Below are positions 5,051 to 20,297 of a stretch of DNA of 38,968 nt, one piece after another; the stretch's first letter is position 1, and the number at the start of each line of letters is the position of its first letter. A program made the position numbers and the translations under genes. The notes under the pieces were generated by a model. The model was not told where the DNA came from. It saw only the letters and a program-made list of their open reading frames with translations, and searched no databases. This DNA is from Leptospiraceae bacterium (GTDB lineage Bacteria > Spirochaetota > Leptospiria > Leptospirales > Leptospiraceae), in contig JANYCR010000068.1 of assembly GCA_025360185.1 (NCBI GenBank), positions 1-38,968 on the forward strand, written 5' to 3'.

Positions 5051-5392
5051 ATGAAAATAAAAGTTATCTTAAAAAACGATGTTCACATCATTAAAATAGA
5101 AGGTCCAATTAAAGCTGGAAATGAGTTTGAGTTAGGTGAGAAAATTGAAGAGTATATCAAGAAAGGTAAAGCTCCCAAATTTATCATTGACTTAAAAAAA
5201 GTTCCCTTTATCAATTCAGCAGGGCTTGGTATTTTTTTAAATATTTATAAGCATGTAGATGGATTGAAGGGCAGAATGGTATTTGCCAATCTAAATTCAG
5301 ATATCGAAAACTTAATGGAGATAACGAAGCTAGCGAGTATCTTTGAGATTTTCAAAACCGCAGATGAGGCGTTGGAATCCTTTGACTTCTAG
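5051..5392 (+). CDS. STAS-domain anti-anti-sigma factor-like protein
   Basis: A 113-residue single STAS domain of the SpoIIAA/RsbV type. LKKVPFINSAGLGIFL carries the phospho-acceptor serine (Ser56) in the conserved D-x-(S/T)-x-x-G region, here N-S-A-G-L-G. In the family, the unphosphorylated protein binds and removes an anti-sigma kinase, and a SpoIIE/PP2C phosphatase reactivates it. Such a phosphatase is coded three genes downstream in the same apparent operon (end of 9050-14332). No anti-sigma kinase (HATPase_c) is in the window. The stop lies only 11 nt before the next gene. The divergent promoter region is 4886-5050; I could not pick a convincing promoter there. Confidence 0.88.
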   Translation: MKIKVILKNDVHIIKIEGPIKAGNEFELGEKIEEYIKKGKAPKFIIDLKKVPFINSAGLGIFLNIYKHVDGLKGRMVFANLNSDIENLMEITKLASIFEIFKTADEALESFDF

Positions 5393-5403
5393 AAACACTG
5401 TCC

Positions 5404-8400
5404 GTGAGACTTCTAAATTTAAAAATGCTGGCTGGCTTTCTGGGGAAGAAGTCAGTAATTTTTCTACTCTTTCTTTTTTTACTCTATCATATCACGTTTA
5501 ATCGTTTTACAGGCAGTTTCCTACTCAATTATATTTTTACAAATTTTTCCACTGGCTCTTTCGCGGGGAAAGTAAATCAGTTTTCTCTTTTTTATGGATT
5601 AGAAATTGAATCTATAGTAATTCGCTCGGGAGCAGACTTTGATAATAAAATTATTTTTTCCTGTGAAAGAATTGCAATACTTTACAATCTTCCTTACACT
5701 TTCTTAGGAAAATTAAAACTTTCCGAGATTTCTCTCAGAAAACCATTTATACAGGTTTTAGAAAAGAACGGCAAACTGAACGTAACCACACTATTCCCAG
5801 CAGGCGAGCCAAAGCCCAAAGAGCCGACACCAGAAAAAGCTCCGCAAGAAGAGATAAATGTTTATTTGCCGGTCAGCGCCTATTTGAATTTCTTTATTGA
5901 AGATTTAACGTTTCGAATGGAAAAAGAAAAAGGACAAAAGTATTTTTTAACGGAAGAAAAAAATCTAGATATAAAGCTACTCATCGCCACAAAAAGATTT
6001 AGAAAAATTCCTCTGAATGCAAGCATAGTTTCCATTTTTGAAACTATTCAAATTTCCATTAATCCAACTCGCGACTTACAAGTATTATTCCAAGATAATC
6101 ATAACCAGATTAACCAGCCAATTGCAACATCCTTAGTATTAAATTTGGACTCCGAAGCAAATCCGCCAGAGTTTCATTCAAAGTTAAACCTAGGCTCTGA
6201 GCAAATCCAGCTATTAGTGAAGAATCGCAAATTACCACCATTTGGATTAAACGTTTCTTATGATCTAAATTACTTACCCATTGAAGATACGCTTGAGCTA
6301 AGTGATTTAGCTGTAAAATTTGACAAGACCGAATGGTTAAGAGCAAATGGGAAAATAACAAAAGCGATTACTGAAGACAGAGATTTCGATCTAAAAATTT
6401 TTAAATCCCGAATCGAATTATTGCCCGTTGCCTCTGTCTATAAACAAATCCCTGGGCTTCCCAATTTGGATTTTAGAGGAAATTTAGAGTTAGCCCCAAT
6501 CACAGTCACTGGAAAAATGAATTCTCTTATTACAAATGTAGATTTAAAAGTAAAAGACTTTTTTTTAAAGCAAAATACTTCTTCCCATAATATTCCTTTC
6601 CTGACCCTAAAAACTGCGGCTAATATTGATTTACTTACTAAAGAAGAACCAACTAAAGAAAATCCAATCCCTCTTCTAAAAACAACTAGTTTAAAAACTG
6701 AGTTATCTTATAACACACTCCTAGCCGACCTATCTGCCGAAGTGGATAATGGCAAAAAAGTCCACGTCATCTTAAATTTAAAGAGTCTGTATCTAAAAAA
6801 TTTTGTTAGTACACTCGGCGGGAGGCTCAGTGGTAAAGTAATGGTTGATGGAAATACTTTTTCTGATCTAAATGCAGATATCAAGGCATCTATCAACGGT
6901 CTCGATTATTCAATCAAAGGAAGTAAATCTGGTTTTAACAACATAGATTTATCACTATTAGCCGGAATATCATTGGGAGAAAAGTTCTCGTTCCAATCCG
7001 GAAATATAAAAAATCTCTCTTTAAAAGTTAAGAACGAACAAAACCAGGAAGCTCTCGGATTAGCGGTAAATGGCAAATTAGCAATGAACCCGACATTGGA
7101 TGTTTCCATAGACAAGCTTGCGTTAAATTCTGATCTCAACCGCCTAATACCAATTCTCCCCTTAACTCTAAAAGAACAAATTGCACCATCTAAAAAAACA
7201 ATTGGAGATCGCCCTACTCTCGACGGGAAGATTCATTATAAAGACAACCCGGATTCAATGCAAATAGATGGCTCATTAAAACTTGCCCTTCCAGGTATCA
7301 ATATAAATGATATTAAGCCAGAATTTTCCATAAAAATCGCAAAAGATAATACGGGCGAAATTACAATTTCAAAATTTACACTAACAGCTTTGAATGGCGT
7401 AGTCACAGGCAATGCAAGTGGAAACCTGATTAAGCGAACAAGTCAAGACAAGCCACCTCTAGGTCCCTACTACCCATCTATTACTGCTTTTTTATCACTA
7501 GCCTCAGAAAAACAAATTGAGCTAATAAATGGATTCAAGTTCGATGGATCGGTTAATATTGATTTGACGTTAAAAGACTATTTAGCAAAAGGAAAGTTAG
7601 AATCTAAAAATTCCAATTTCGTTTATTATTCGGGGACTTGTAAAGAAAGCGATTATACTGCTTGTAGTCTAATGTATATCAATAAGGTTAATATTAATTT
7701 TCCATTCGAGCACAATCTAAAAATTACAACTACAAAAAATTTAATCGAAGGAAATAAATCAAAATTCATAAGCACGTATGGACAAAACCTTCCATCTAAT
7801 TTTACCATTCAAAATATAATTGGTACTCACCCCTATATCCAAAATGACTTATTCAAATTCTTACAAGAAAACGGAGTCCAACCGGGATTTACCGCAAGGC
7901 TTGATTATAAAGAAAATGTATTGAATATTCACGCTTTAAAAATCTCAACTCTAGACGGATTTATTTTTGGAAAAGATATTCTATTTAATATTGGCAATGC
8001 AAATGTAGACGAAATGGAATATGCCGCTACTGTTCAGATAAAAGACATTGACTTAAAACAACTTTTGCCCCTCAAATCAAGAAAAGAAATTGCAGATGGA
8101 AAGATTAGGGCAGACATAAACCTTTCCGGAAAAAACATGAAAGACCCAATCGCAAACTTGAATTTGTTCTTTAGCGTTTTCAAAATCGGCGAAGACTTTG
8201 GAAAAAGTGCCATACGAATTGTAAGTCCTCCCAACTTGCTTACAGATGGGATAATTGGTAGTTATTCGCAAATTAATAAAATTGAAGTTGAATTATCCAA
8301 GGGATTAGTCTATGCTGATATTTTATTCCAAAGATCTATTCTATCTACTGTTTTTATCGGTATCGATAACAACCAAATCTCACAAGAAAGAATGCCCCTT

Positions 8401-8448
8401 GCTAATTTTTTAAACCGCGCACAATCGGAGGTATCTAAGTATGAATAG
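5404..8448 (+). CDS. AsmA/YdbH-like inter-membrane lipid-transfer protein
   Basis: A 1014-residue protein with one N-terminal membrane helix (about residues 17-33, SVIFLLFLFLLYHITF) followed by a very long periplasmic region rich in alternating beta strands. This is the build of AsmA/TamB/YhdP/YdbH bridge-like proteins, which carry phospholipid from inner to outer membrane. A Pro/Lys/Glu linker (KPKEPTPEKAPQEE, near residue 140) follows the first beta segment. The GTG start is used because it follows the STAS stop by 11 nt; ATG at 5425 is possible and would remove seven residues. The end overlaps the DUF1318 lipoprotein by 8 nt. E. coli ydbH-ynbE-ydbL has the same pairing of an AsmA-like gene with a DUF1318 gene, so a YdbH-like role is inferred. 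The lipid cargo is not shown by the sequence. Confidence 0.75.
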   Translation: MRLLNLKMLAGFLGKKSVIFLLFLFLLYHITFNRFTGSFLLNYIFTNFSTGSFAGKVNQFSLFYGLEIESIVIRSGADFDNKIIFSCERIAILYNLPYTFLGKLKLSEISLRKPFIQVLEKNGKLNVTTLFPAGEPKPKEPTPEKAPQEEINVYLPVSAYLNFFIEDLTFRMEKEKGQKYFLTEEKNLDIKLLIATKRFRKIPLNASIVSIFETIQISINPTRDLQVLFQDNHNQINQPIATSLVLNLDSEANPPEFHSKLNLGSEQIQLLVKNRKLPPFGLNVSYDLNYLPIEDTLELSDLAVKFDKTEWLRANGKITKAITEDRDFDLKIFKSRIELLPVASVYKQIPGLPNLDFRGNLELAPITVTGKMNSLITNVDLKVKDFFLKQNTSSHNIPFLTLKTAANIDLLTKEEPTKENPIPLLKTTSLKTELSYNTLLADLSAEVDNGKKVHVILNLKSLYLKNFVSTLGGRLSGKVMVDGNTFSDLNADIKASINGLDYSIKGSKSGFNNIDLSLLAGISLGEKFSFQSGNIKNLSLKVKNEQNQEALGLAVNGKLAMNPTLDVSIDKLALNSDLNRLIPILPLTLKEQIAPSKKTIGDRPTLDGKIHYKDNPDSMQIDGSLKLALPGININDIKPEFSIKIAKDNTGEITISKFTLTALNGVVTGNASGNLIKRTSQDKPPLGPYYPSITAFLSLASEKQIELINGFKFDGSVNIDLTLKDYLAKGKLESKNSNFVYYSGTCKESDYTACSLMYINKVNINFPFEHNLKITTTKNLIEGNKSKFISTYGQNLPSNFTIQNIIGTHPYIQNDLFKFLQENGVQPGFTARLDYKENVLNIHALKISTLDGFIFGKDILFNIGNANVDEMEYAATVQIKDIDLKQLLPLKSRKEIADGKIRADINLSGKNMKDPIANLNLFFSVFKIGEDFGKSAIRIVSPPNLLTDGIIGSYSQINKIEVELSKGLVYADILFQRSILSTVFIGIDNNQISQERMPLANFLNRAQSEVSKYE

Positions 8449-9046
8449 GAAAAAATGGGTATTATTCTCAATTCTTTTTTTTACAAGTTTAAATTGCAAT
8501 TTAAAACCACCTGCCATTACATTTACACAATCACAAACCGCAGCCGAAAAACAAATGGTCGGCGAGGACAAAGAGCTCGAGAAAGATGGCTGGCTTATTT
8601 CATCTATCAAAACATCGTCATCTGGTTCTGATGAATGGAAAAAAGATACACTCCTGTATGAAGAAAGTGAATTTAAGGATAAAGACTATTATACCCTACT
8701 GAGCGTAATCGCTTATTTGGCGCCAGAGGTAAAATTATATAAGTCGAAGGGATTGCTTGGAGAAGGGTTAAATGGTCTGTTAGAAAAACCAAAAATAATT
8801 CTTGATAAGGCGACTCTGGATGAATATTCTACGTCAGAAAAAAAGAAACGACTTGAAGAAGTTTCTAAACTGATAAATGAGTCAAGAGTTAAAATATATG
8901 AAACTAGAATTTTATCGCTGACAAAATCAGATAAGCCCAAAGACGATCTCACAAAGCTAAAAGAAAAAATAATATTGTCTAATTATAATAATTCAGAGCC
9001 AGGGGAATATATAGAAACATCAAAAGCCAACTGGACTAAAAAATAA
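8441..9046 (+). CDS. DUF1318 (YdbL-like) lipoprotein
   Basis: A 201-residue lipoprotein whose signal peptide ends in FTSLNC (lipid-anchored Cys19). The mature N-terminus, KPPAITFTQSQTAAEKQM then VGEDKELEKDGW, and the C-terminal half are DUF1318-like. SKGLLGEGLNGLL, LINESRVKIYE and the closing PGEYIETSKANWTKK correspond to the GLVGE, N-x-R-x-x-Y and PGEY-x-W blocks of YdbL. In E. coli, YdbL is periplasmic and the separate lipoprotein YnbE is the outer-membrane partner of YdbH. Here one lipid-anchored protein may serve both roles (inference). It overlaps the AsmA-like gene by 8 nt and is followed after 3 nt by the kinase/phosphatase gene, so the four genes are very probably co-transcribed. Confidence 0.75.
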   Translation: MNRKKWVLFSILFFTSLNCNLKPPAITFTQSQTAAEKQMVGEDKELEKDGWLISSIKTSSSGSDEWKKDTLLYEESEFKDKDYYTLLSVIAYLAPEVKLYKSKGLLGEGLNGLLEKPKIILDKATLDEYSTSEKKKRLEEVSKLINESRVKIYETRILSLTKSDKPKDDLTKLKEKIILSNYNNSEPGEYIETSKANWTKK

Positions 9047-9049
9047 TTC

Positions 9050-12000
9050 ATGATTTCATTGCCAGGTTATACTATAAAGGAGAAAGTTTTTGAAAATAAG
9101 AATACAGTGATATATAGAGCGATTGCGGATGACACTAATTTATCCGTAATTTTAAAGACTCATCGAAATAGCTTTCCTACAAACCGAGAAATTTCCGCCT
9201 ACCGGAAGGAATTTGAAATTACTTCAAAGCTCCCAATTGACGGGATTCTAAAATCTTATCATCTTAAAAAAAGCGGAGCACAATACATAATCATTTTTGA
9301 AGATATGCACGGGGTTTCCCTAAAATCATTTATAGGGTATAATAATATTAGCCTTAAATCCTTAATGGATATATTTTTATCCATAGTAAATATAGTCAAT
9401 AAAATTCATAAGCACAATATAATTCATAAAGATATTAATCCGTTAAATATTTTAATTCATCCAGAAACATTCAACATAAAGGTAATCGATTTTGGAATAG
9501 CATCCATCTACAGCAAAGAAAATATTGAAAACTTAGAAGTAGAGTTTTTAGAAGGAAGTATTCCCTACATTTCTCCCGAACAAAGCGGTAGAATGAATCG
9601 ACCGCTTGACTATAGATCTGATTTTTATTCACTCGGAGTTACATTCTATGAGCTTCTAACTAAGCGAACTCCTTTTGAATCAAATGACTCAATGGATTTA
9701 ATTCATTCTCATATAGCGAAATCTCCTATTTCACCTTTCTACCAGGCTATTGCATATTATCCGCATAGCGATATAACCGTTAGAAAACTTTCTGAATTAA
9801 TTTTAAAACTTCTAGCAAAAGATCCAGAAGATAGATACCAATCTGCAAGTGGAATCGCTTATGATTTAATAAAAATTTTAGAATATGAAAATCGAAATGA
9901 GCCGCAAAGTCCCTTATTACTAGAAATTGGCAAAAATGATTTTTCCGGAAAACTACAAATTCCATCTAAGCTTTTCGGAAGAGAATCAGAAAGAAAAATC
10001 TTGGAAGACTCTTTTAGTCGAATCTATGTCGGTTCGAGTGAATTAATTTTTGTTCATGGGTATGCAGGTGTAGGGAAGACAGCTCTGGTCAACGATCTCA
10101 GAAGAAATGTAATGGATGCAAACGGCATTTTTATTTCTGGGAAATACGAAGAGCTAAATCGAAATTTACCGTTCCTAGGATTGCTATCCGCATCAAGAGA
10201 ATTTATACGTCAAATTCTACTTGGCGGTTCAGAAGAAATTGGAAACTGGAAAGAAAAATTCCTTCGAAGCCTGGGAAATAACGCCAAACTTATAACAAAT
10301 GTAATACCAGAGCTGGAAATTATAACGGGTATCCTAGAACCCGTTGAAGAATTAGATGATAACGAAACAGCAAATAGATTTCAGCTAACGCTTCGAAATT
10401 TCATAAATACTTTTCAAGATAGTAAACATCCAGTTCTGCTTTTTTTAGATAATTTTCAGTGGGCGGATACAGCTTCACTCCAATTAATTGAATCATTGTT
10501 TGATTATATGGAGACAAAAAATATTCTATTTGTATGCTCTTATAAAAATAGTGAGGAAAATCTATATTATTCTGTTCGAAATTTCATTCAAGCTATTAAA
10601 AATAAATATCCATCGACCCAAGATATTGAACTACATAATCTTAAATTAGATGATGTGGGTAAATTTATTGCAGAAACTATTAATTATCCCCAAGATAAGT
10701 GTATCGAATTCTCTGATTTAATTTATTTAAAGACGAGCGGAAATCCTTTTTTCATAACCGAATTTTTGAAATTTATATATCTTGAAAAATACTTACTGCC
10801 GCAGGAAAAACCAGAAGGGGGATTTTTATGGAAATGGAATGTTGATTCCATTCGCAATCTAAATATCAGTGACAACCTAGCAGATATAGTGACATCCAAT
10901 TTAAGACTTTTGCATCCGAATACAGAGGCTTTAATTCAAATTGCTGCCTGTTTCGGAAATACTTTTACTAGTGAAGTATTATCGTTATTAACCGGTGAAA
11001 ATAAAGCCGAAATTGAAGAATCTTTAATTGGCGCAGTTGCCTCGGGCTTAATTCTTGTTTCAGGAAATACTTATAAATTCCTACATGAAAAAGTACAGTT
11101 CGCCGCCTATTCACTATTAGATGAACAAAAGAAAACTCAATTGCATGCAAAAATTGCAAAAGTTCTTTTAAATGATCAAACTGATTTTGAAATAAAAGAA
11201 AAAATTTTTTCAATAGCTAATCATTTGAATCTAGGAAGAGATTATCTTTCTAGTGATGTATCAAGACTAAAAGCTGCCCATATTAATCTGGAGGCAGGGA
11301 GAAAAGCAAAATCGTCTTCAGCCTATGAGTTAGCGCTCAAGCATTTCACAAATGGAATTTATTTTTTAGAGTCTTCCGCTGAAACAGAAAGTAAGGAGTT
11401 AAAAATCAATGCCTACCTAGAAGCTTCCGAGTGTGCCTACCTCTGCAATCAATATGAAGTAATGCAAATAACTCTCGATAAAACGTTAGCCGAAACAGAT
11501 GACCTCATCATAAAAGCAAAAGTCTCTGAAATAAAAAATAAATATTTAATTACATCCGGGAATCCTACTCAAGCAATTCAAAATACGATTGCACTACTCT
11601 ATGAACTAGGTGTTCATTTTCCTACCTCCCCTAAAATTTATCATGTGATAATTAGTATTCTAAAAGTCAAATTTGCACTCAGAAAAAAAACCATGCATGA
11701 ACTAATCGTTTATAAACAAGCTACTGACCCAAAAATCATTGCGATTATGCGGCTAATATCTATTATAGGTTCAGCGGCTTATTTTTCATCTCCGAATCTC
11801 TTACCCCTTTTAATTTTAGAAAATGTATATTTGTCACTCAAATACGGTTACAGTTCGTATACCCCTTTTTCTTTTTCTGCTTATGGGATAATACTTTGTG
11901 GAAATCTTGGTGAAGTAAATAAAGGATATGAATTCGGAAACCTGGCACTCAAAATTTATGAGAACCTCGATGGAATAAAAAGTAAAACAAAAATACTACA

Positions 12001-14332
12001 TATGGTAAATTCTTTTATTATTCACTGGAAGGATCATATTCGTTTAACACTTGATCCATTATGGGAATGTTACCTGAGTGGTTCCGAAACTGGTGATTTA
12101 GAATTTGCATTTTACGGATTAATTCAATACTCCTTTCATTCTCTTTTTGCAGGAAAAGAACTTGTTCCTCTAAGCAAAGAAGTTTCCATCGGAATTAAAT
12201 CGCTAGAAAATTATAATCACACAAACTCGAGATACCAATTGAAAATTTTTCATTTAGTATTACTAGGGCTAATTGATCAAAAAGAAAATCCAAATACAAT
12301 TTTAACCGGGATAAAAAATCTTTTACAGGACAAAGACATTGACAAAACATCTGTCGAGGCTAACTCATTCTATTTTCACTTTTATAATTTATTCTTAAAC
12401 TTTTATTTTGGGGAATTCGAAGAAGGAATTAAAAACGCGAAGATCGCTTACTCATTTTCTTCCTCTATGCGTTCTCTTGCAATTTTTCCTGTTTTATTAT
12501 TTTTAGAATCCCTCTCTTTACTACAAGAATACCAGAAAGTAAATTTTTTTCTAAAACGAAAATACCTAAGGACAGTTGCGGCAAATCAACGTAAGTTAAA
12601 AAAATGGGCAGAGCATTCCCGCGTTAACTTCTTGCATAAGTTTTATCTAGTCGAAGCAGAAAAAGATAGAGTTTTAAATAAAAGATTGTCGGCAATAGAC
12701 AACTATGAATTAGCCGTTCAACTGGCAAAAGAAAGTGAATTCACTCATGAAGTTGCATTAGCATACGAACTTGCGGGAAAATTTTTCTTAAATTTAGAAA
12801 AATATACAATCACAAAATCATATTTAAACTCTGCACTTTACTATTATCATATCTGGGGCGCAGTCGCAAAAATGAAACAGCTAGAAAAGCTCTATCCTAG
12901 TTTTGTGGAAAATATTTACGAAGAAGATTCTGACGTTGAATCAGAAGCAACTGCTTCCGTCGTAACACAAAGAGGCGATTCGGAGTCATTTAATCTTGCT
13001 AGTATGGTAAAAGTTTCGGAAGCGATATCACGTGAAATTTATTTAGACAAAGTATTATCCTCTCTTGTTAAAATATTAATTGAAAATGCGGGCGCTGAGC
13101 GAGGAGTTCTAATTTTAGAAGAAGGGGGACAATTATTCATTGAAGCTGAGGCTTCTTTTGATAAAAATGAAATATCAGTTCTTCAATCAGTACCTATGGA
13201 AAAAGGAGATTTACCGCTAACTGTTATTAACTATGCAATCAGATTTAGCGAATACATCGTATTAAACGATGCAATAAAAAGTGAACGATTTTCTAAAGAC
13301 CCGTATGTTTTAAAAAATAACTCAAGATCTATTCTATGTTTTCCTATTTTTCAAAAACAAAGTTTGTTTGGAATCTTTTACTTAGAAAATAATTTAAGCT
13401 CTTATGCATTTAAGAAAAACAGTGTAGAGCTTCTTGTTATGATTTCTTCTCAATCAGCTATTTCGATTGAGAACGCAAGACTTTATGCAAGCCTTGAATC
13501 TAGAGTAAACAAAAGAACGAAAGAACTAGATGATTCACTTAAACAGCAATATACATTAAATGAAAATTTAATGAAAATTACAGGTGAGCTAAATCAATCT
13601 CTTCAAAAAATTAAAAAGGATTTGGTTCTTGCCAAAAAAATTCAAGATAGTATCCTCCCGAAGAATCTTGAGAATATAACTAATTTGAATATTTCTACTT
13701 TCTACAGTCCAATGGATGAAGTCGGTGGAGATTTTTTTGATATAACAAAAATAAATGAGCGCAAAATTCGAATTTTCCTCGCAGACGCAACGGGACACGG
13801 AATCCAGGGTGCACTTATTACGATGGCAATAAAAAGTGAATACGAAGGACTAAAACATAATATAGCAGATCCAAGCGAATTGCTCGGGACCATAAACAAC
13901 GGTTTTTTAAAAAAATTTCAATCGATCAATGCTTTTTTTACTTGCATACTTTTAGACATAGACCCTATTGGAGGAAAAATAAAATATGCCGCAGCCGGAC
14001 ATCCTCCGCAAATTCTTATCCAGGATGGTAATGTTCAGAAACTAGCTTCAACAGGAAAAATAATTGGAATAAAAGAAGACGTCCAGTATAAACAAAATGA
14101 ATTTCCGTTCGGGATGAAGGATAAATTATTTCTTTATTCTGATGGAATTTTCGAGGAATTTAATTATGTTCGGGATGAGTTTGGAGAAGAAAAACTCTGG
14201 GGGATATTAATAGAAAATAAAAATATTTCCGTCAGTGAAACGTTGAACTCGGTCGTTCAACAAGTCGATGATTTTCTAGGTAACCTTCCACAAGAAGATG
14301 ATATGACCTTTATCGGTATTGAATACAAATAG
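9050..14332 (+). CDS. Ser/Thr kinase - AAA-type ATPase - helical repeat - GAF - SpoIIE phosphatase
   Basis: A 1760-residue cytoplasmic signalling protein. Residues 1-280 are a protein kinase: VILK Lys36, HKD Asp128 with Asn133, DFG Asp147, SPEQ near 176. The glycine loop is degenerate (EKVFENKNTV). Residues about 310-640 are an AAA/STAND-type ATPase with Walker A G337YAGVGKT and Walker B FLDNF (Asp467). Residues 650-1300 are helical, TPR-like. A GAF domain (about 1315-1475) and a coiled coil (1480-1535) precede a PP2C/SpoIIE domain with EVGGDFF (1557), DATGHG (Asp1579), AAGHPP, YSDGIFE and QEDDMTF (Asp1750/1751). The architecture is that of the large kinase/ATPase/sensor-histidine-kinase proteins, with SpoIIE replacing the histidine kinase. 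It can in principle both phosphorylate and dephosphorylate. The STAS protein at the head of the operon is the obvious candidate substrate (inference). Confidence 0.9.
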   Translation: MISLPGYTIKEKVFENKNTVIYRAIADDTNLSVILKTHRNSFPTNREISAYRKEFEITSKLPIDGILKSYHLKKSGAQYIIIFEDMHGVSLKSFIGYNNISLKSLMDIFLSIVNIVNKIHKHNIIHKDINPLNILIHPETFNIKVIDFGIASIYSKENIENLEVEFLEGSIPYISPEQSGRMNRPLDYRSDFYSLGVTFYELLTKRTPFESNDSMDLIHSHIAKSPISPFYQAIAYYPHSDITVRKLSELILKLLAKDPEDRYQSASGIAYDLIKILEYENRNEPQSPLLLEIGKNDFSGKLQIPSKLFGRESERKILEDSFSRIYVGSSELIFVHGYAGVGKTALVNDLRRNVMDANGIFISGKYEELNRNLPFLGLLSASREFIRQILLGGSEEIGNWKEKFLRSLGNNAKLITNVIPELEIITGILEPVEELDDNETANRFQLTLRNFINTFQDSKHPVLLFLDNFQWADTASLQLIESLFDYMETKNILFVCSYKNSEENLYYSVRNFIQAIKNKYPSTQDIELHNLKLDDVGKFIAETINYPQDKCIEFSDLIYLKTSGNPFFITEFLKFIYLEKYLLPQEKPEGGFLWKWNVDSIRNLNISDNLADIVTSNLRLLHPNTEALIQIAACFGNTFTSEVLSLLTGENKAEIEESLIGAVASGLILVSGNTYKFLHEKVQFAAYSLLDEQKKTQLHAKIAKVLLNDQTDFEIKEKIFSIANHLNLGRDYLSSDVSRLKAAHINLEAGRKAKSSSAYELALKHFTNGIYFLESSAETESKELKINAYLEASECAYLCNQYEVMQITLDKTLAETDDLIIKAKVSEIKNKYLITSGNPTQAIQNTIALLYELGVHFPTSPKIYHVIISILKVKFALRKKTMHELIVYKQATDPKIIAIMRLISIIGSAAYFSSPNLLPLLILENVYLSLKYGYSSYTPFSFSAYGIILCGNLGEVNKGYEFGNLALKIYENLDGIKSKTKILHMVNSFIIHWKDHIRLTLDPLWECYLSGSETGDLEFAFYGLIQYSFHSLFAGKELVPLSKEVSIGIKSLENYNHTNSRYQLKIFHLVLLGLIDQKENPNTILTGIKNLLQDKDIDKTSVEANSFYFHFYNLFLNFYFGEFEEGIKNAKIAYSFSSSMRSLAIFPVLLFLESLSLLQEYQKVNFFLKRKYLRTVAANQRKLKKWAEHSRVNFLHKFYLVEAEKDRVLNKRLSAIDNYELAVQLAKESEFTHEVALAYELAGKFFLNLEKYTITKSYLNSALYYYHIWGAVAKMKQLEKLYPSFVENIYEEDSDVESEATASVVTQRGDSESFNLASMVKVSEAISREIYLDKVLSSLVKILIENAGAERGVLILEEGGQLFIEAEASFDKNEISVLQSVPMEKGDLPLTVINYAIRFSEYIVLNDAIKSERFSKDPYVLKNNSRSILCFPIFQKQSLFGIFYLENNLSSYAFKKNSVELLVMISSQSAISIENARLYASLESRVNKRTKELDDSLKQQYTLNENLMKITGELNQSLQKIKKDLVLAKKIQDSILPKNLENITNLNISTFYSPMDEVGGDFFDITKINERKIRIFLADATGHGIQGALITMAIKSEYEGLKHNIADPSELLGTINNGFLKKFQSINAFFTCILLDIDPIGGKIKYAAAGHPPQILIQDGNVQKLASTGKIIGIKEDVQYKQNEFPFGMKDKLFLYSDGIFEEFNYVRDEFGEEKLWGILIENKNISVSETLNSVVQQVDDFLGNLPQEDDMTFIGIEYK

Positions 14333-14429: not shown

Positions 14430-17045
14430 ATGCTAGAGGCAATCAAAAAATATTTTTCAAAAGAGATAAGTATCCTTGGATCGATGAAGCCAAGATTGGT
14501 ATGGATTCTTTATTGGACTATTGCAGCCTCCTGTTTAAGCTTAATCTCATTACTCCTTGCAAAGCTCATCGCTTCCTTTAGTGCTCAAATTGCAAATTTC
14601 TTAGGGCTAGGACTTGGTGGGTCTGTTTTTATTATCCTAATGATAATTCTTTTTATAATATTCTTAGAAAATAAACTACGTGGATATATCCTGATTACCC
14701 TCTTTTTTAGTGCAGCAGCCTTTCTTGTAGAAAAATATTTTCTACATAATCAAATATTTTCCCCATTCACAACGAGGACAACTATACTTCTCTGGGTATC
14801 ATTTCTAACACTTTTTGCTTCTATGTTTTACCAGAACATTTCTAAGTGGGTACTTTTATTTTTCCCACCTATACTTATTATTGGATTTTTTATTTCGTTT
14901 TGTTTTACGCTCATCATGATTCCTTTTATGTTAATCGGGTGGATTGCAATTTTGTTTCTGGGACTCGGGATTTTGCCCTACACGCCTCTCATGGCTTCCA
15001 TTGCATTTCTAGTAATGTGCTATACGTCAGTATCTGAACTAAGAGATAATAAGTATTATCTGCAATATACATTTTCTAAGTATTTAACCTATGGGATTCT
15101 GATTTTCACCTCACTTTATTTTATCTGGTTTCATACAGAATGGAACAGGGGACAATTTATAATTCGAAATCATTTCTTAGAAAATAAAATTATAAATTCC
15201 AAGCGAAGCCTTATTGACGATGACCTGCCTGCCTGGGCGTCACTCGGGATGAAGCTGCCCGTAAATCATGTAAGTGAACTTTACCTACAACCTGAATCTA
15301 ATAGTCGGGAAGTTTTATTTACACTATTTGGCTCTGATAAATTATTTGATCCATTTGCATTCATTGTATCCAATATATCAAAAAAAGTAGAAATCCCTAA
15401 TGAAGATAGAGAACATCTTTTAAAACTTCTTTTCGGGTATACGCATATTAGCCTGAATCGACTATGGAATGGAAATTCTTTGATTACGAGTGATGTAGAA
15501 ACAAATCTGCAACTTTATCCTGAGTCTAGAATTGCCTATACAGAAATGAAAATCAGTCTATACAATGAAAACAACTTGGATAAGCAAGAAGCCATTTACA
15601 CATTTAAAGTACCCGAAGGTAGTGTTTGCACAAAGCTGAGTCTCTGGATCGATGGTAAAGAAGAGTTAGCACGCCTAACGTATTTATCTAAAACACAAAA
15701 TGCAGATAATACAGCCTTGGGTGTTGAAAATAAAGATCCATCTTACGTTACCTGGATGGAAGACAACCTACTAAGAGTAAGAGTCTTTCCTGTCTTAGCT
15801 GGAAATTATAGAAGTTTTAAAATTGGATTCATTAGTCCACTGCAAGTTACAAATAATAAACTCAAATACCAGGGATTTAAAATCGAAGGACCGGTTTTAG
15901 ATTCAGCCAAGCATAAAATAGAATCAAATGTATTTGAACCGAAGGATACGAATCTTTCCGGAAAAGCCTATACATTCGAAAAGAAAAATTCACGTAATAC
16001 AAAAGAAATTTATTCTAAGTGGTTTGCCTATGGAAAATACGAAGAAGATTGGTCTATATTCTTAGACAATCCACCACCGGTAAATGGCATATTTCGTTCT
16101 GCCGATTTAAAACTTACGGTTTCCGAATTAGAAATGAAAGAAAAAGATTTTCGTCCGGATAAAATTTACATTCTTATTAATTCTTCTTTATCAAAAAAAG
16201 AATGGAAGAACGTTTACACTCGATTATCCGCACTTGGAACGAACTCTCAAATAATACTAGTGACTAACGAATGGTTTTATTCTAAAAACAAAGAAGAAAA
16301 TCTTGATTTCATTGATTCGCAGGTCTTACCGAAATTTAACTTATTTCCATTTTATAAAATAGTAAACGATACGGATATTCTAATCGTAACAAATAGGGAA
16401 GAAAGTTCTATCCCGTTCAATGAATTAAAGGGTAGCATATTTTTTAATAAGAATAAAGAATTTTTCAGCAAAAACAAAAAAAATATTTATATTCAATCTC
16501 TAAATGGCAAACTCTCAACTTATTTTAATAGCCTTAAAGAGTATGAGCTAATACAGGATATCCCCATATCATTGGATGCAATCCTAGAAGCCTTAAAGCA
16601 AGCAAAAATAAAAACTCCGATAGAGTCCGATGAAAAATATTCGTTCCAGGATTCTAAAATTACAATTGGCATTGAAAAGAATTCTAATACAAATAGCAAA
16701 ATAGGAAATGACTTACTCGCAAAACTTGTATTATATAAAAGAATTATGCGTGTGTTAGGGAAGAAAATAGTTCCGGCAAAAGACACGAAAGAGATTGGAA
16801 TATTTGAAATGGCAAAACTAGGAAGAATCGTAACTCCTTTTACTTCCTTTATTTTTTTAGAAAATGACAACGACTATGATAGATTTGGAACCAAGAAAAA
16901 TAATGAGATCAATCTAAAAACGGAAGATTCAATTGCCTCTACTGTTAAAAGTGGAACACTCCCGGAACCGAAAGAGTGGGTAATTGGGATTATCTGTATC
17001 CTGTTAATTCTTTTCTGGGTGAAATTAAAACTGAATCGTGCCTAG
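14430..17045 (+). CDS. Multi-spanning VIT-domain protein with PEP-CTERM-type sorting signal
   Basis: An 871-residue protein with about seven or eight membrane helices in residues 20-235, then a large soluble part. Near residues 370-470 is a vault/inter-alpha-trypsin (VIT)-like region: TEMKISLYNENN, then DPSYVTWMEDNLLRVRVFPV and the GFISPL block. A von-Willebrand-A-like region follows (KIYILINSSL), then ARLGRIV-type AKLGRIVTPFTSFIFLENDN. The C-terminus is tripartite: LPEP, a hydrophobic helix WVIGIICILLILFWV, and basic KLKLNR, as in exosortase substrates. The domain mix resembles the integral PEP-CTERM / MSEP-CTERM families (TIGR02921/TIGR04286 by memory). No exosortase lies in the window. It is 97 nt after the kinase gene, in the same direction. 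Confidence 0.7.
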   Translation: MLEAIKKYFSKEISILGSMKPRLVWILYWTIAASCLSLISLLLAKLIASFSAQIANFLGLGLGGSVFIILMIILFIIFLENKLRGYILITLFFSAAAFLVEKYFLHNQIFSPFTTRTTILLWVSFLTLFASMFYQNISKWVLLFFPPILIIGFFISFCFTLIMIPFMLIGWIAILFLGLGILPYTPLMASIAFLVMCYTSVSELRDNKYYLQYTFSKYLTYGILIFTSLYFIWFHTEWNRGQFIIRNHFLENKIINSKRSLIDDDLPAWASLGMKLPVNHVSELYLQPESNSREVLFTLFGSDKLFDPFAFIVSNISKKVEIPNEDREHLLKLLFGYTHISLNRLWNGNSLITSDVETNLQLYPESRIAYTEMKISLYNENNLDKQEAIYTFKVPEGSVCTKLSLWIDGKEELARLTYLSKTQNADNTALGVENKDPSYVTWMEDNLLRVRVFPVLAGNYRSFKIGFISPLQVTNNKLKYQGFKIEGPVLDSAKHKIESNVFEPKDTNLSGKAYTFEKKNSRNTKEIYSKWFAYGKYEEDWSIFLDNPPPVNGIFRSADLKLTVSELEMKEKDFRPDKIYILINSSLSKKEWKNVYTRLSALGTNSQIILVTNEWFYSKNKEENLDFIDSQVLPKFNLFPFYKIVNDTDILIVTNREESSIPFNELKGSIFFNKNKEFFSKNKKNIYIQSLNGKLSTYFNSLKEYELIQDIPISLDAILEALKQAKIKTPIESDEKYSFQDSKITIGIEKNSNTNSKIGNDLLAKLVLYKRIMRVLGKKIVPAKDTKEIGIFEMAKLGRIVTPFTSFIFLENDNDYDRFGTKKNNEINLKTEDSIASTVKSGTLPEPKEWVIGIICILLILFWVKLKLNRA

Positions 17046-17777: not shown

Positions 17778-20144
17778 TTAAGCTATCGTTTCCAAGAGCT
17801 GTTTTTTTAATTCATTATCTGGATCAATTAATTCTACAATGCCAAGTAAATAATCAGCACGCTTTTTATTTCCCAATAATGCGTAGGATTCCGCTAGGTT
17901 GATTAGATTTTTTACATGCCCTGGCGCACGAAGATGAACGCGTTCTCCATAGTCAACAGCACGGGTAAATTCTCTTGCCTGCTTGTATGCATAAGAAGTT
18001 AAGAATAAAAATTCTGTGTCTGCTGGTTTAGATTTTAAATAAATTTCACATTCTTTAATGGCAATTTTAAAATTTTTAGACTTAATATAAAGTTTCGCAA
18101 GTTCCTTTTTGATAGTCAGATCTTCTGGTTTTATGTTTTGCAAAGTTTCAAAAATCCTTATCGAAAGTAAATAATCTCCATCTCTATACGCCTTCATTGC
18201 TCTTTTTCTTAGGTGCATGAAATCATTTGAAAAATAATTCAAATTGATAAGTGCAGGATTTGTATATGCAATACGCATGAGCGTAAAATCATCTGTTAAC
18301 TCACCATGAGCAAGAATTGATTGTTCTATTCTTTCAAGTTTTCCCCTACCTTCTTCTACTCTCAGCAAGATTTGATTTTCATCTTCATTAATCACTCTAA
18401 CACCATTGAGTGTATGCATTAAAATATCGTCACGTCCATCAGAACCAAGTATAATAATATCATCAACCTCTAATTGGAATACATGAACCTTGAGTCTAAT
18501 ATCGGATTGCTCCACACCAATTTTCCGTAAGTAGATATCATCATCTATAAATTGAGCCTTCCCATTGCGGTAGAGGATAACAAAAGGATGCTCCGTATTT
18601 ATAAAATACATTACACCTGTTTCCTCCGAAATAAGTCCGATAACGCAGGAAATTAGCATGGAGCCATCGAAGGAAATAAAAACATTTTGTAATTCCTGGT
18701 AACAGTCTTTTAACCAGCGTTCCGGATATTTATTTTGCAAAGATGGAATTTCAAGTGTGTTTTGTATAATGGACTTAAATACAGTTCCCATCACGAGTGC
18801 TCCTCCTGCACCCTGTAAAGATTTACCCATTGCATCTGCATTCATAAATACAGTATATTTATTTTCCTGAAGATAAATATGATTAACCGCACATAAATCT
18901 CCACCTATTTCTGAATGTTTATTTCTAAAATGAAAATTCTTTTTTTGTCGCACCAAGGATTCAATCGTAACATTTTCACTTTTTATATTTCCATTTGAAA
19001 GTGGTCTAAGAAGTAGCGAAGTCAAAAAGTAATCACCGTCCTGATGAATTTTTAATTGATTCACTTCTGTTAGAGTAGTTTGTAGTTCTTGCGTTTTTTG
19101 ATTTACTTTTTCTTCCAAATCATTTTGGTAGGAAAATAAATCTGATTTCATTTTAACAAATACATTACTCATTTGTCCAATTTCATCTTTTCGTTTCAAA
19201 TCTAAAATTTCTTTTTCATCATGGTCAATATTTGCCATTGCTAAATTTAAAGCTTTAACCGCGCGGATGATATCATTTGAAAATAAAAAAGATAAGACAA
19301 ATACGATTGAAATTAAGATTGCAGTGGCTATAGAGAAATACATCCAAATTTTTTTAGTAACCGAATGTAGTTCTGTTTCATTAATTAAAAACAAAAATTC
19401 TAGATTTAGATCTGTAAGTCCTTTGTTCTGATAAGGAATTTTTACAATGTAATGATATTCTTCTTGAAATTTTAATCTTTGTTTAGAAGTTATTTCGTCT
19501 ATTCCTGAAAATTGTTTTACAAAGTTTTTTATTAGCTCACTACTAGATGCTTGCATTTTTTTCTTTTCAAATACAGCCATATGAGTATTATCCCCTCCTA
19601 CAATATCAGAGGTAAATTCATCGTCTACTTTTTGACCGACCATAATAGTGCCATTGCCAAGCGGAGCAGTCATTCTAAACCCAAGCCCGCTATGACCCGA
19701 TTCTAAAGTGGAAGTCACTTCACCTTTTAAAGCAGATTGAATGATTTTTTGTCCACTTTTATCATCCCCAAAATCAGCAGGTCTATGAAAACGAAAATAC
19801 ACTTTACCATTATTGTCCCCAATTTCGAAGATACTCAGAGAATTAGCTTTCATAATATCCAGGAAATAATCTAAATTTGCCGTTAGTATGGCTCGATTTT
19901 GTAAACCGGCATAGATTAGATTTGTAGTTTTAGAATTTGACGTGATAGAATTTAAAAGTAGTTTTAATTTTTCTTCTTTAAAAGCTAGTTCGCGTTGAAA
20001 CTGATTTGCCTGTTCCATTGCGCGTTTATCCTGCGGTTCATTTTTAACTCTTTCAACAAGAATTACAAAAACACTAGTAAGCACAAGTGTGAGCATAATC
20101 TGGCTTAAACCCAATATTAAAAAAAGTTTTGTTCTAAAGTTCAT
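17778..20144 (-). CDS. Cache-HAMP-SpoIIE phosphatase with C-terminal TPRs
   Basis: A 788-residue membrane sensor. An N-terminal helix (LFLILGLSQIMLTLVLTSVF) leads into an extracytoplasmic Cache-like domain with SIFEIGDNNGKVYFRFHRP and GLGFRMTAPLGNGTIMVG. A second helix (YFSIATAILISIVFVLSFLF), a HAMP region and a short coiled coil follow. The PP2C/SpoIIE domain shows EIGGDLCAV, NADAMGKSLQGAGGAL, GSDGRDD and LTDDFTLM. The last ~150 residues are TPR-like. The ATG at 20144 (MNFRTKLF) is chosen because it begins directly before the first helix; an upstream TTG would add 17 residues unlikely to be translated. It would dephosphorylate a STAS protein in response to an external ligand. It is divergent from the PAS-domain gene. 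Confidence 0.87.
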   Translation of the reverse strand: MNFRTKLFLILGLSQIMLTLVLTSVFVILVERVKNEPQDKRAMEQANQFQRELAFKEEKLKLLLNSITSNSKTTNLIYAGLQNRAILTANLDYFLDIMKANSLSIFEIGDNNGKVYFRFHRPADFGDDKSGQKIIQSALKGEVTSTLESGHSGLGFRMTAPLGNGTIMVGQKVDDEFTSDIVGGDNTHMAVFEKKKMQASSSELIKNFVKQFSGIDEITSKQRLKFQEEYHYIVKIPYQNKGLTDLNLEFLFLINETELHSVTKKIWMYFSIATAILISIVFVLSFLFSNDIIRAVKALNLAMANIDHDEKEILDLKRKDEIGQMSNVFVKMKSDLFSYQNDLEEKVNQKTQELQTTLTEVNQLKIHQDGDYFLTSLLLRPLSNGNIKSENVTIESLVRQKKNFHFRNKHSEIGGDLCAVNHIYLQENKYTVFMNADAMGKSLQGAGGALVMGTVFKSIIQNTLEIPSLQNKYPERWLKDCYQELQNVFISFDGSMLISCVIGLISEETGVMYFINTEHPFVILYRNGKAQFIDDDIYLRKIGVEQSDIRLKVHVFQLEVDDIIILGSDGRDDILMHTLNGVRVINEDENQILLRVEEGRGKLERIEQSILAHGELTDDFTLMRIAYTNPALINLNYFSNDFMHLRKRAMKAYRDGDYLLSIRIFETLQNIKPEDLTIKKELAKLYIKSKNFKIAIKECEIYLKSKPADTEFLFLTSYAYKQAREFTRAVDYGERVHLRAPGHVKNLINLAESYALLGNKKRADYLLGIVELIDPDNELKKQLLETIA

Positions 20145-20297
20145 ATAGATATAGAATATAGAATTTACTACAATATGGTTACACCTGCTTGGCAATTTGA
20201 TAAATTGATTTTAATATTTCTTTACACTGTTGTCATATAAAAGTAACACTCCAAATCCATACTGCTCTTAGTCATACATGGAACAAAGGAAGTATTT

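Follow-up and report, generated by a model that had tools for sequence, protein, structure and literature searches.

In the canonical scheme, STAS-only proteins govern sigma factors by way of an anti-sigma kinase, with a phosphatase as the input (PMC8256260). For the Pseudomonas pair PA3346/PA3347 (HsbR/HsbA), one polypeptide has been reported to act as both kinase and phosphatase on Ser56 of the STAS protein (PMC8256260), and in Mycobacterium tuberculosis the Hanks-type kinase PknD phosphorylates the anti-anti-sigma STAS protein Rv0516c at Thr2 (PMC4601284). On the side of lipid transfer, the Escherichia coli ydbH-ynbE-ydbL locus was named in PMC8593681, and the function of YdbH-YnbE is the subject of PMC11784454. 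How outer-membrane lipid supply is matched to stress is still largely open, and little is known about the regulation of AsmA-family bridges. Here, we analyzed four genes at positions 5051 to 14332 of a 38,968-nt stretch of Leptospiraceae DNA (contig JANYCR010000068.1 of assembly GCA_025360185.1; "the window"), which encode, in this order, a STAS protein, an AsmA-like protein, a DUF1318 protein, and a protein kinase fused to a SpoIIE phosphatase. An earlier note on this DNA had described them as a partner-switching pair in one operon with an inter-membrane lipid-transfer system.

The reading that we prefer, and that we hold with about even confidence, is that an old transcriptional partner switch came to share a transcript with lipid-bridge genes within one family, after which one genus added the kinase-phosphatase. 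The operon may tie envelope building to stress signaling, but the wider evidence points to a switch that acts mainly on gene expression and came to lie beside the lipid genes later. A conserved operon joining a phospho-switch and an AsmA bridge offers a testable entry point.

Organization of the locus

Recomputing the open reading frames (ORFs) returned four same-strand (+) ORFs with exactly the starts, stops, and order given in the earlier note, and with the close packing it had described: a gap of 11 nt, an overlap of 8 nt (-8), and a gap of 3 nt. Its identification of the STAS, AsmA-like, and kinase-SpoIIE products likewise held up against profile matches, homologs, and motifs, and that of the DUF1318 product draws on its orthologs. 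The features are as follows.

5051..5392, + strand: STAS-only protein of the RsbV/SpoIIAA type, 113 aa (PF01740, TIGR00377, ortholog searches)
5216..5218, + strand: Ser56 codon TCA, motif KKVPFINSAGLG, at the RsbV/SpoIIAA phospho-serine position (sequence, ortholog alignment)
5404..8448, + strand: AsmA-like protein of the LIC_11026 family, predicted inner-membrane-anchored beta-groove, 1014 aa, GTG start (NF047499, homolog Pfam matches, AlphaFold2 [AF2] model)
8441..9046, + strand: DUF1318 (YdbL-like) protein, 201 aa, putative lipoprotein signal with Cys19 (sub-threshold PF07027 match, orthologs)
9050..14332, + strand: Ser/Thr kinase-AAA_16-linker-GAF-SpoIIE phosphatase protein, 1760 aa, the linker being without a Pfam match (Pfam)
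9098..9844, + strand: protein kinase domain, residues 17-265 (PF00069, 125 bits)
13757..14326, + strand: SpoIIE phosphatase domain, residues 1570-1759 (PF07228, 140 bits)

From their spacing, the four genes probably form a close-packed operon with a single transcript. Promoter and terminator predictions were rejected as evidence for this operon, as they did not rise above shuffles (45 vs 52; 5 vs 7).

The window genome (G000), of 5.83 Mb, contains ∼38 STAS and 77 SpoIIE domains. At this density, ∼6% of its STAS genes (∼2 of 38) should by chance have a SpoIIE domain on the same strand no more than 9 kb downstream. Because these domains are so common, their pairing in one genome is unremarkable, and only conservation carries weight.

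Conservation of gene order

The genomes compared include the four of the window genus (G000, G027, G028, and G029) and three from other genera of the same family in which STAS is also linked to AsmA (G024, G025, and G026). Several are fragmented metagenome-assembled genomes, and the window assembly has an estimated contamination of 7%. No Leptospira genome was identified among them, which places Leptospira proper outside the sample.

In all seven of these genomes, representing four genera, STAS, AsmA, and DUF1318 are adjacent, with gaps of -26 to +45 nt, and this three-gene order is kept across the genera despite changed flanks and an AsmA identity of ∼30%. The four-gene order is limited to the window genus: G000 and G027 have it intact, in G028 it is divided between the ends of contigs C62 and C15, and in G029 it is likewise broken up over contigs, with the kinase gene on C134. 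The earlier note had named absence of the order in relatives as grounds for refuting its proposal. On that test the proposal stands in part, in that all four window-genus genomes carry the kinase/SpoIIE gene after DUF1318 and STAS-AsmA-DUF1318 recurs in four genera, but the four-gene order fails outside the genus, where G024, G025, and G026 have a different gene 3′ of DUF1318. The three-gene unit is a family-level feature and the four-gene unit a genus-level addition; the parts are known ones in a new combination, and we do not see a new kind of system in them.

For G029, where the contig ends inside STAS and leaves that gene incomplete, an absence of the four-gene order was considered and rejected: contig C139 has DUF1318 followed directly by an XrtN-type gene, but C134 opens with the 3′ end of a further DUF1318 gene, with the kinase gene 3 nt on. 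This genome thus holds two versions of the locus, one without the kinase (C139, L036) and one with the kinase in between (C134, L149), reflecting either a strain mixture (two haplotypes) or a duplication.

In the AsmA tree, each of the four window-genus genomes has a further AsmA copy without STAS, and these group with the single copy of G023. Copies linked to STAS are found on the two remaining branches of the family, from which the linkage of STAS to AsmA probably goes back to the family ancestor; where the two longest branches, G028_C62 and G026, belong in the tree is uncertain. The STAS-free second copies lie at L034:8007-19143 (G000:C192), L033, L035, and L038, with a rhomboid-like gene upstream in three genomes and DUF1318 usually 3′. 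A very large gene comes next after that AsmA/DUF1318 stretch in G000, G027, and G029, and also in G023 and G024, the G024 version being a PD40/TPR protein of 2674 aa.

It could be argued that the order is passive, with STAS and the kinase/phosphatase serving unrelated targets and sharing only a transcript or neighborhood with the lipid genes. STAS and SpoIIE genes are indeed very common (38 and 77 domains), the neighbors of STAS differ in other families, and regional synteny is kept around the operon within the genus. What this explanation does not account for is that the overlaps and short gaps of STAS-AsmA-DUF1318 are kept in four genera while flanks have changed and AsmA identity has fallen to ∼30%. 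We give it a low but appreciable probability.

The STAS protein and its neighbors in other families

The STAS protein matches PF01740 (70.9 bits) and exceeds the cut-off of the TIGR00377 ant_ant_sig model (74.0 vs 53.45 bits), but its 58.4 bits are short of the 114.75 that the SpoIIAA equivalog model requires. Of the 48 class genomes, 41 have an ortholog (E ≤ 1e-16), each with one match and at 45 to 99% identity. Alignment places Ser56, which the earlier note had put forward as a possible phosphorylation site, at the RsbV/SpoIIAA phospho-serine position, and it is invariant in 39 of 39 aligned orthologs, nearly all with the motif KKVPF[IVA]NS[AQ][AG]LG. Between genera of the family, the STAS proteins are 82 to 96% identical, compared to 28 to 43% for AsmA and 35 to 49% for DUF1318. 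With so conserved a single-copy protein beside neighbors at ∼30%, STAS looks like an unstudied signaling hub of this spirochaete class, which includes the genus Leptospira.

Outside the family, the neighbors of STAS change. In the sister family it is unlinked to AsmA; a homologous gene of ∼260 aa lies upstream of STAS in all 18 regions fetched (L131-L148), usually with a small gene between. The ∼260-aa family gave Sigma70_r2 matches in 9 of 16 members and Sigma70_r4 matches in 6 of 16, in the right order and below Pfam cut-offs where these were shown. The model of one member is all-helical (predicted local distance difference test score [pLDDT] of 85), and its top PDB matches are mostly extracytoplasmic function (ECF) sigma factors (SigL, E. 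coli sigma-E, SigH, AlgU, and SigK; best E of 6.3e-3). The small gene has a conserved C-terminal domain and, in three members, the HxxxCxxC motif of zinc-type anti-sigma factors; it is fused to the sigma-like gene in three sister-family genomes. As an example of the resulting cassette, L134:9944-11602 carries genes for a putative, divergent ECF-type sigma, a small putative zinc-type anti-sigma, and STAS; dapF is often nearby on the other strand.

The genome G024 forms a bridge between the two arrangements, as a sigma homolog (237 bits with the sigma model) directly precedes its STAS-AsmA-DUF1318 genes. G000, G027, and G029 keep an unlinked sigma-like homolog, which in G000 lies among housekeeping genes (L178:5399-6214, C573). 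The putative anti-sigma gene had no match in the window's family in a search run without a positive control. In the more distant families f3-f6 (L193-L206), the gene 3′ of STAS is usually for a major facilitator superfamily (MFS)-type transporter. A sigma gene beside STAS was considered as the class-wide ancestral state and set aside, having not been found in f3-f6 except for one unconserved ECF gene.

Taken together, family membership, the invariant Ser56, and the place behind ECF-type sigma and putative anti-sigma genes in the sister family suggest an anti-sigma antagonist; STAS is most likely an ancient, class-wide, single-copy phospho-switch of the RsbV kind. The suggestion that STAS and the kinase/phosphatase are a switch dedicated to lipid transport is not supported by these comparisons, since STAS is class-wide, is found elsewhere with an ECF-type sigma or MFS gene and unlinked to AsmA, and since the remaining three genera with STAS-linked AsmA have no kinase gene in the operon.

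A more elaborate form of the preferred reading would make STAS a class-wide hub that works in one family with a divergent ECF-type sigma and a zinc-type anti-sigma, not an RsbW kinase, and that in the window's family is switched by the Hanks-kinase/SpoIIE protein to set AsmA/DUF1318 expression, linking stress signaling to outer-membrane lipid supply. As a whole, we regard this proposal as rather unlikely.

The kinase/SpoIIE protein

Pfam matches in the kinase/SpoIIE protein are to Pkinase (125 bits), AAA_16 (119), GAF (46), and SpoIIE (140), the AAA_16 ATPase and GAF domains being additional to the first description. Its catalytic motifs are intact in both the kinase (HKD126 and DFG147) and the phosphatase (GGDFFD1559, GHG1582, SDG1697, and DDM1750). 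Kinase-AAA-GAF proteins are a large expansion in the window genus, with ∼20 matches per genome and varied C-terminal regions. The gene lies at most 3 nt from DUF1318 in G000, G027, G028, and G029 C134, and in a quick tree the four proteins form one clade. A full-length relative 7.5 kb from STAS in G009 raised the question of whether the protein travels with STAS beyond the genus; as it falls outside the window-genus clade in the quick tree, we took this as coincidence.

One could suppose that the kinase/phosphatase is a bifunctional regulator of another STAS or sigma-pathway protein, leaving only STAS-AsmA-DUF1318 as a meaningful unit. Its absence from the operon in G024, G025, and G026 would fit, as would the ∼20 kinase-AAA-GAF matches per window-genus genome, with many possible substrates. 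Set against this is the spacing of 3 nt or less, retained in all four genomes even where the G028 version is only 45% identical, and we judge the supposition improbable.

The AsmA-like and DUF1318 proteins

With the NCBIfam model of the LIC_11026 family (NF047499; cut-off 325), the AsmA-like protein scored 1004 bits. The window copy has no Pfam match of its own; among 31 homologs, DUF748 was matched in 17 (best 5e-10), AsmA in 7 (2.4e-8), and TamB in 1. The AF2 model (mean pLDDT 85) has an N-terminal membrane helix, preceded by only ∼15 residues, and then long beta structure. Fold matches were weak: lipid carriers and bridges, namely ApoB, the lipid-bridge protein LPD-3, and LptD, came out on top with low TM-scores, and no AsmA-family entry was among the 50 matches listed. 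On the basis of its relatives and the AlphaFold model, we assign the protein to the AsmA/YdbH-type lipid-bridge family. Weak matches to MotB and FAK-like proteins were all that a profile search of PDB sequences returned, and these were rejected. There was no match in the plasmid collection, and a literature search on LIC_11026 and neighboring locus tags found nothing. Within the order, 27 of 30 genomes have the gene, usually with DUF1318 adjoining it; across the phylum, 115 of 247 sampled genomes do.

The window copy of DUF1318 scored 21.4 bits with PF07027, below the cut-off of 27; 17 of 22 orthologs matched at E ≤ 0.1 (best 1.8e-8). An alignment showed a strongly conserved segment, PPITxTxxxTAAExQxxGExKExExDGW, just after the lipobox/lipidation region (window 8495-8600). 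This segment could stand in for YnbE, which in E. coli is a lipoprotein of its own.

A hairpin, ACTGGCTTTC...GAAGTCAGT, followed by T-rich sequence, lies where the AsmA gene begins (window 5427-5456), with similar ones in G027 and G029. It is possibly an attenuator between STAS and AsmA; folding around it in G000 was overall not unusual (z 0.6).

Regulation of a lipid transporter by a STAS protein is known for MlaB, which acts on the MlaF ATPase (PMC7367683). By analogy, the STAS protein here might gate the lipid bridge directly, under the control of the kinase/phosphatase. The conserved gene order in the family would agree with such gating. However, AsmA-like proteins lack a cytoplasmic ATPase for STAS to bind, the model leaves just ∼15 residues before the membrane helix, STAS scores above the cut-off of an anti-sigma-antagonist model, and STAS and AsmA are unlinked outside the family. 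Direct gating of lipid transfer by STAS is thus unsupported, and we consider it highly unlikely.

Model for the locus

Returning to a transcriptional switch that was later joined to the lipid genes, we propose that unphosphorylated STAS would bind an anti-sigma partner and that phosphorylation of Ser56 would release it. In the family ancestor, the STAS gene would have joined AsmA-DUF1318, with both probably on one transcript, as spacing and conserved order suggest. In the window genus, the fused kinase/SpoIIE gene would then have joined the operon, its product probably phosphorylating or dephosphorylating Ser56 according to a signal that its own GAF or AAA region may sense. Signaling and lipid transfer would be linked by joint or sigma-mediated expression and not by direct gating of the bridge, a preference we base on the MlaB precedent, which works on an ABC ATPase with no counterpart at this locus.

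Several observations weigh against this model. The real STAS kinase could be any one of the 23 HATPase_c_2 matches in the genome, and both co-transcription and Ser56 phosphorylation are inferred from sequence. The NuoL-like upstream and XrtN-type downstream flanks are conserved too in the window genus, so that part of the genus-level order may be plain synteny. The sigma assignment lies below Pfam cut-offs and has no fold match at E ≤ 0.001, and the zinc-binding residues of the putative anti-sigma gene occur in only three members. Finally, searches for the sigma homolog detected none in G028 or G026 and, in G025, just a weak fragment, and the STAS proteins of these genomes are 87 to 96% identical to other family members. 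As STAS has hardly changed where a sigma homolog escaped detection, it must have further partners, for which the 23 HATPase_c_2 matches of G000 may be a source; this is the main gap in the explanation.

Genes neighboring the operon

The next gene is outside the claimed module:

14430..17045, + strand: XrtN-system VIT-domain protein (TIGR04477, 577 bits)

It begins 97 nt past the kinase gene on the same strand, with no terminator-like site between, and may share the operon transcript. An XrtN-type VIT gene is also found 3′ of the kinase gene in related genomes. In G027 (L154:8762-10108), an exosortase N gene (TIGR04476, 228 bits) adjoins it; there is no room for one at that place in the window. 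A second SpoIIE phosphatase protein, with a dCache_3 sensor and TPR, is encoded ∼3 kb from the operon (17778-20195, - strand).

Comparison with described systems

With RsbU/RsbV/RsbW and SpoIIE/SpoIIAA/SpoIIAB (PMC8256260), the locus has in common a STAS-only protein with a conserved loop serine and a SpoIIE-type phosphatase in the same operon. It differs in that the kinase is Hanks-type and fused to AAA_16, GAF, and the phosphatase, and in that lipid-bridge genes lie between. A complete Rsb-type operon was not found: the operon has no HATPase_c_2 anti-sigma kinase and no sigma gene, and the HATPase_c_2 matches of the genome that were listed are on other contigs. PA3346/PA3347 resembles it in the single kinase/phosphatase polypeptide and the STAS Ser56 target. 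PA3346 is a response regulator, whereas the kinase here is Hanks-type, and we know of no lipid-transfer genes at that locus. PknD/Rv0516c differs in its site, Thr2 rather than a loop serine, and to our knowledge PknD has no fused phosphatase.

YdbL is a DUF1318 protein, and the E. coli YdbH-YnbE-YdbL locus is alike in encoding an AsmA-family bridge together with a DUF1318 protein and a lipoprotein. Here, in contrast, one DUF1318 protein bears the putative lipoprotein signal and the operon has no separate YnbE-like gene; the E. coli locus has no signaling genes. The Mla system (MlaFEDB) is similar in that a STAS protein regulates lipid trafficking (PMC7367683), but our locus has no ABC transporter or MCE protein, and its STAS protein matches an anti-sigma-antagonist model. 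In Leptospira, tatC serves Tat export rather than lipid transfer, and no STAS protein is reported beside it; with its adjacent predicted serine phosphatase (TIGR04400, PMC4758666), it parallels the locus described here as an envelope/export gene tightly linked to a signaling phosphatase.

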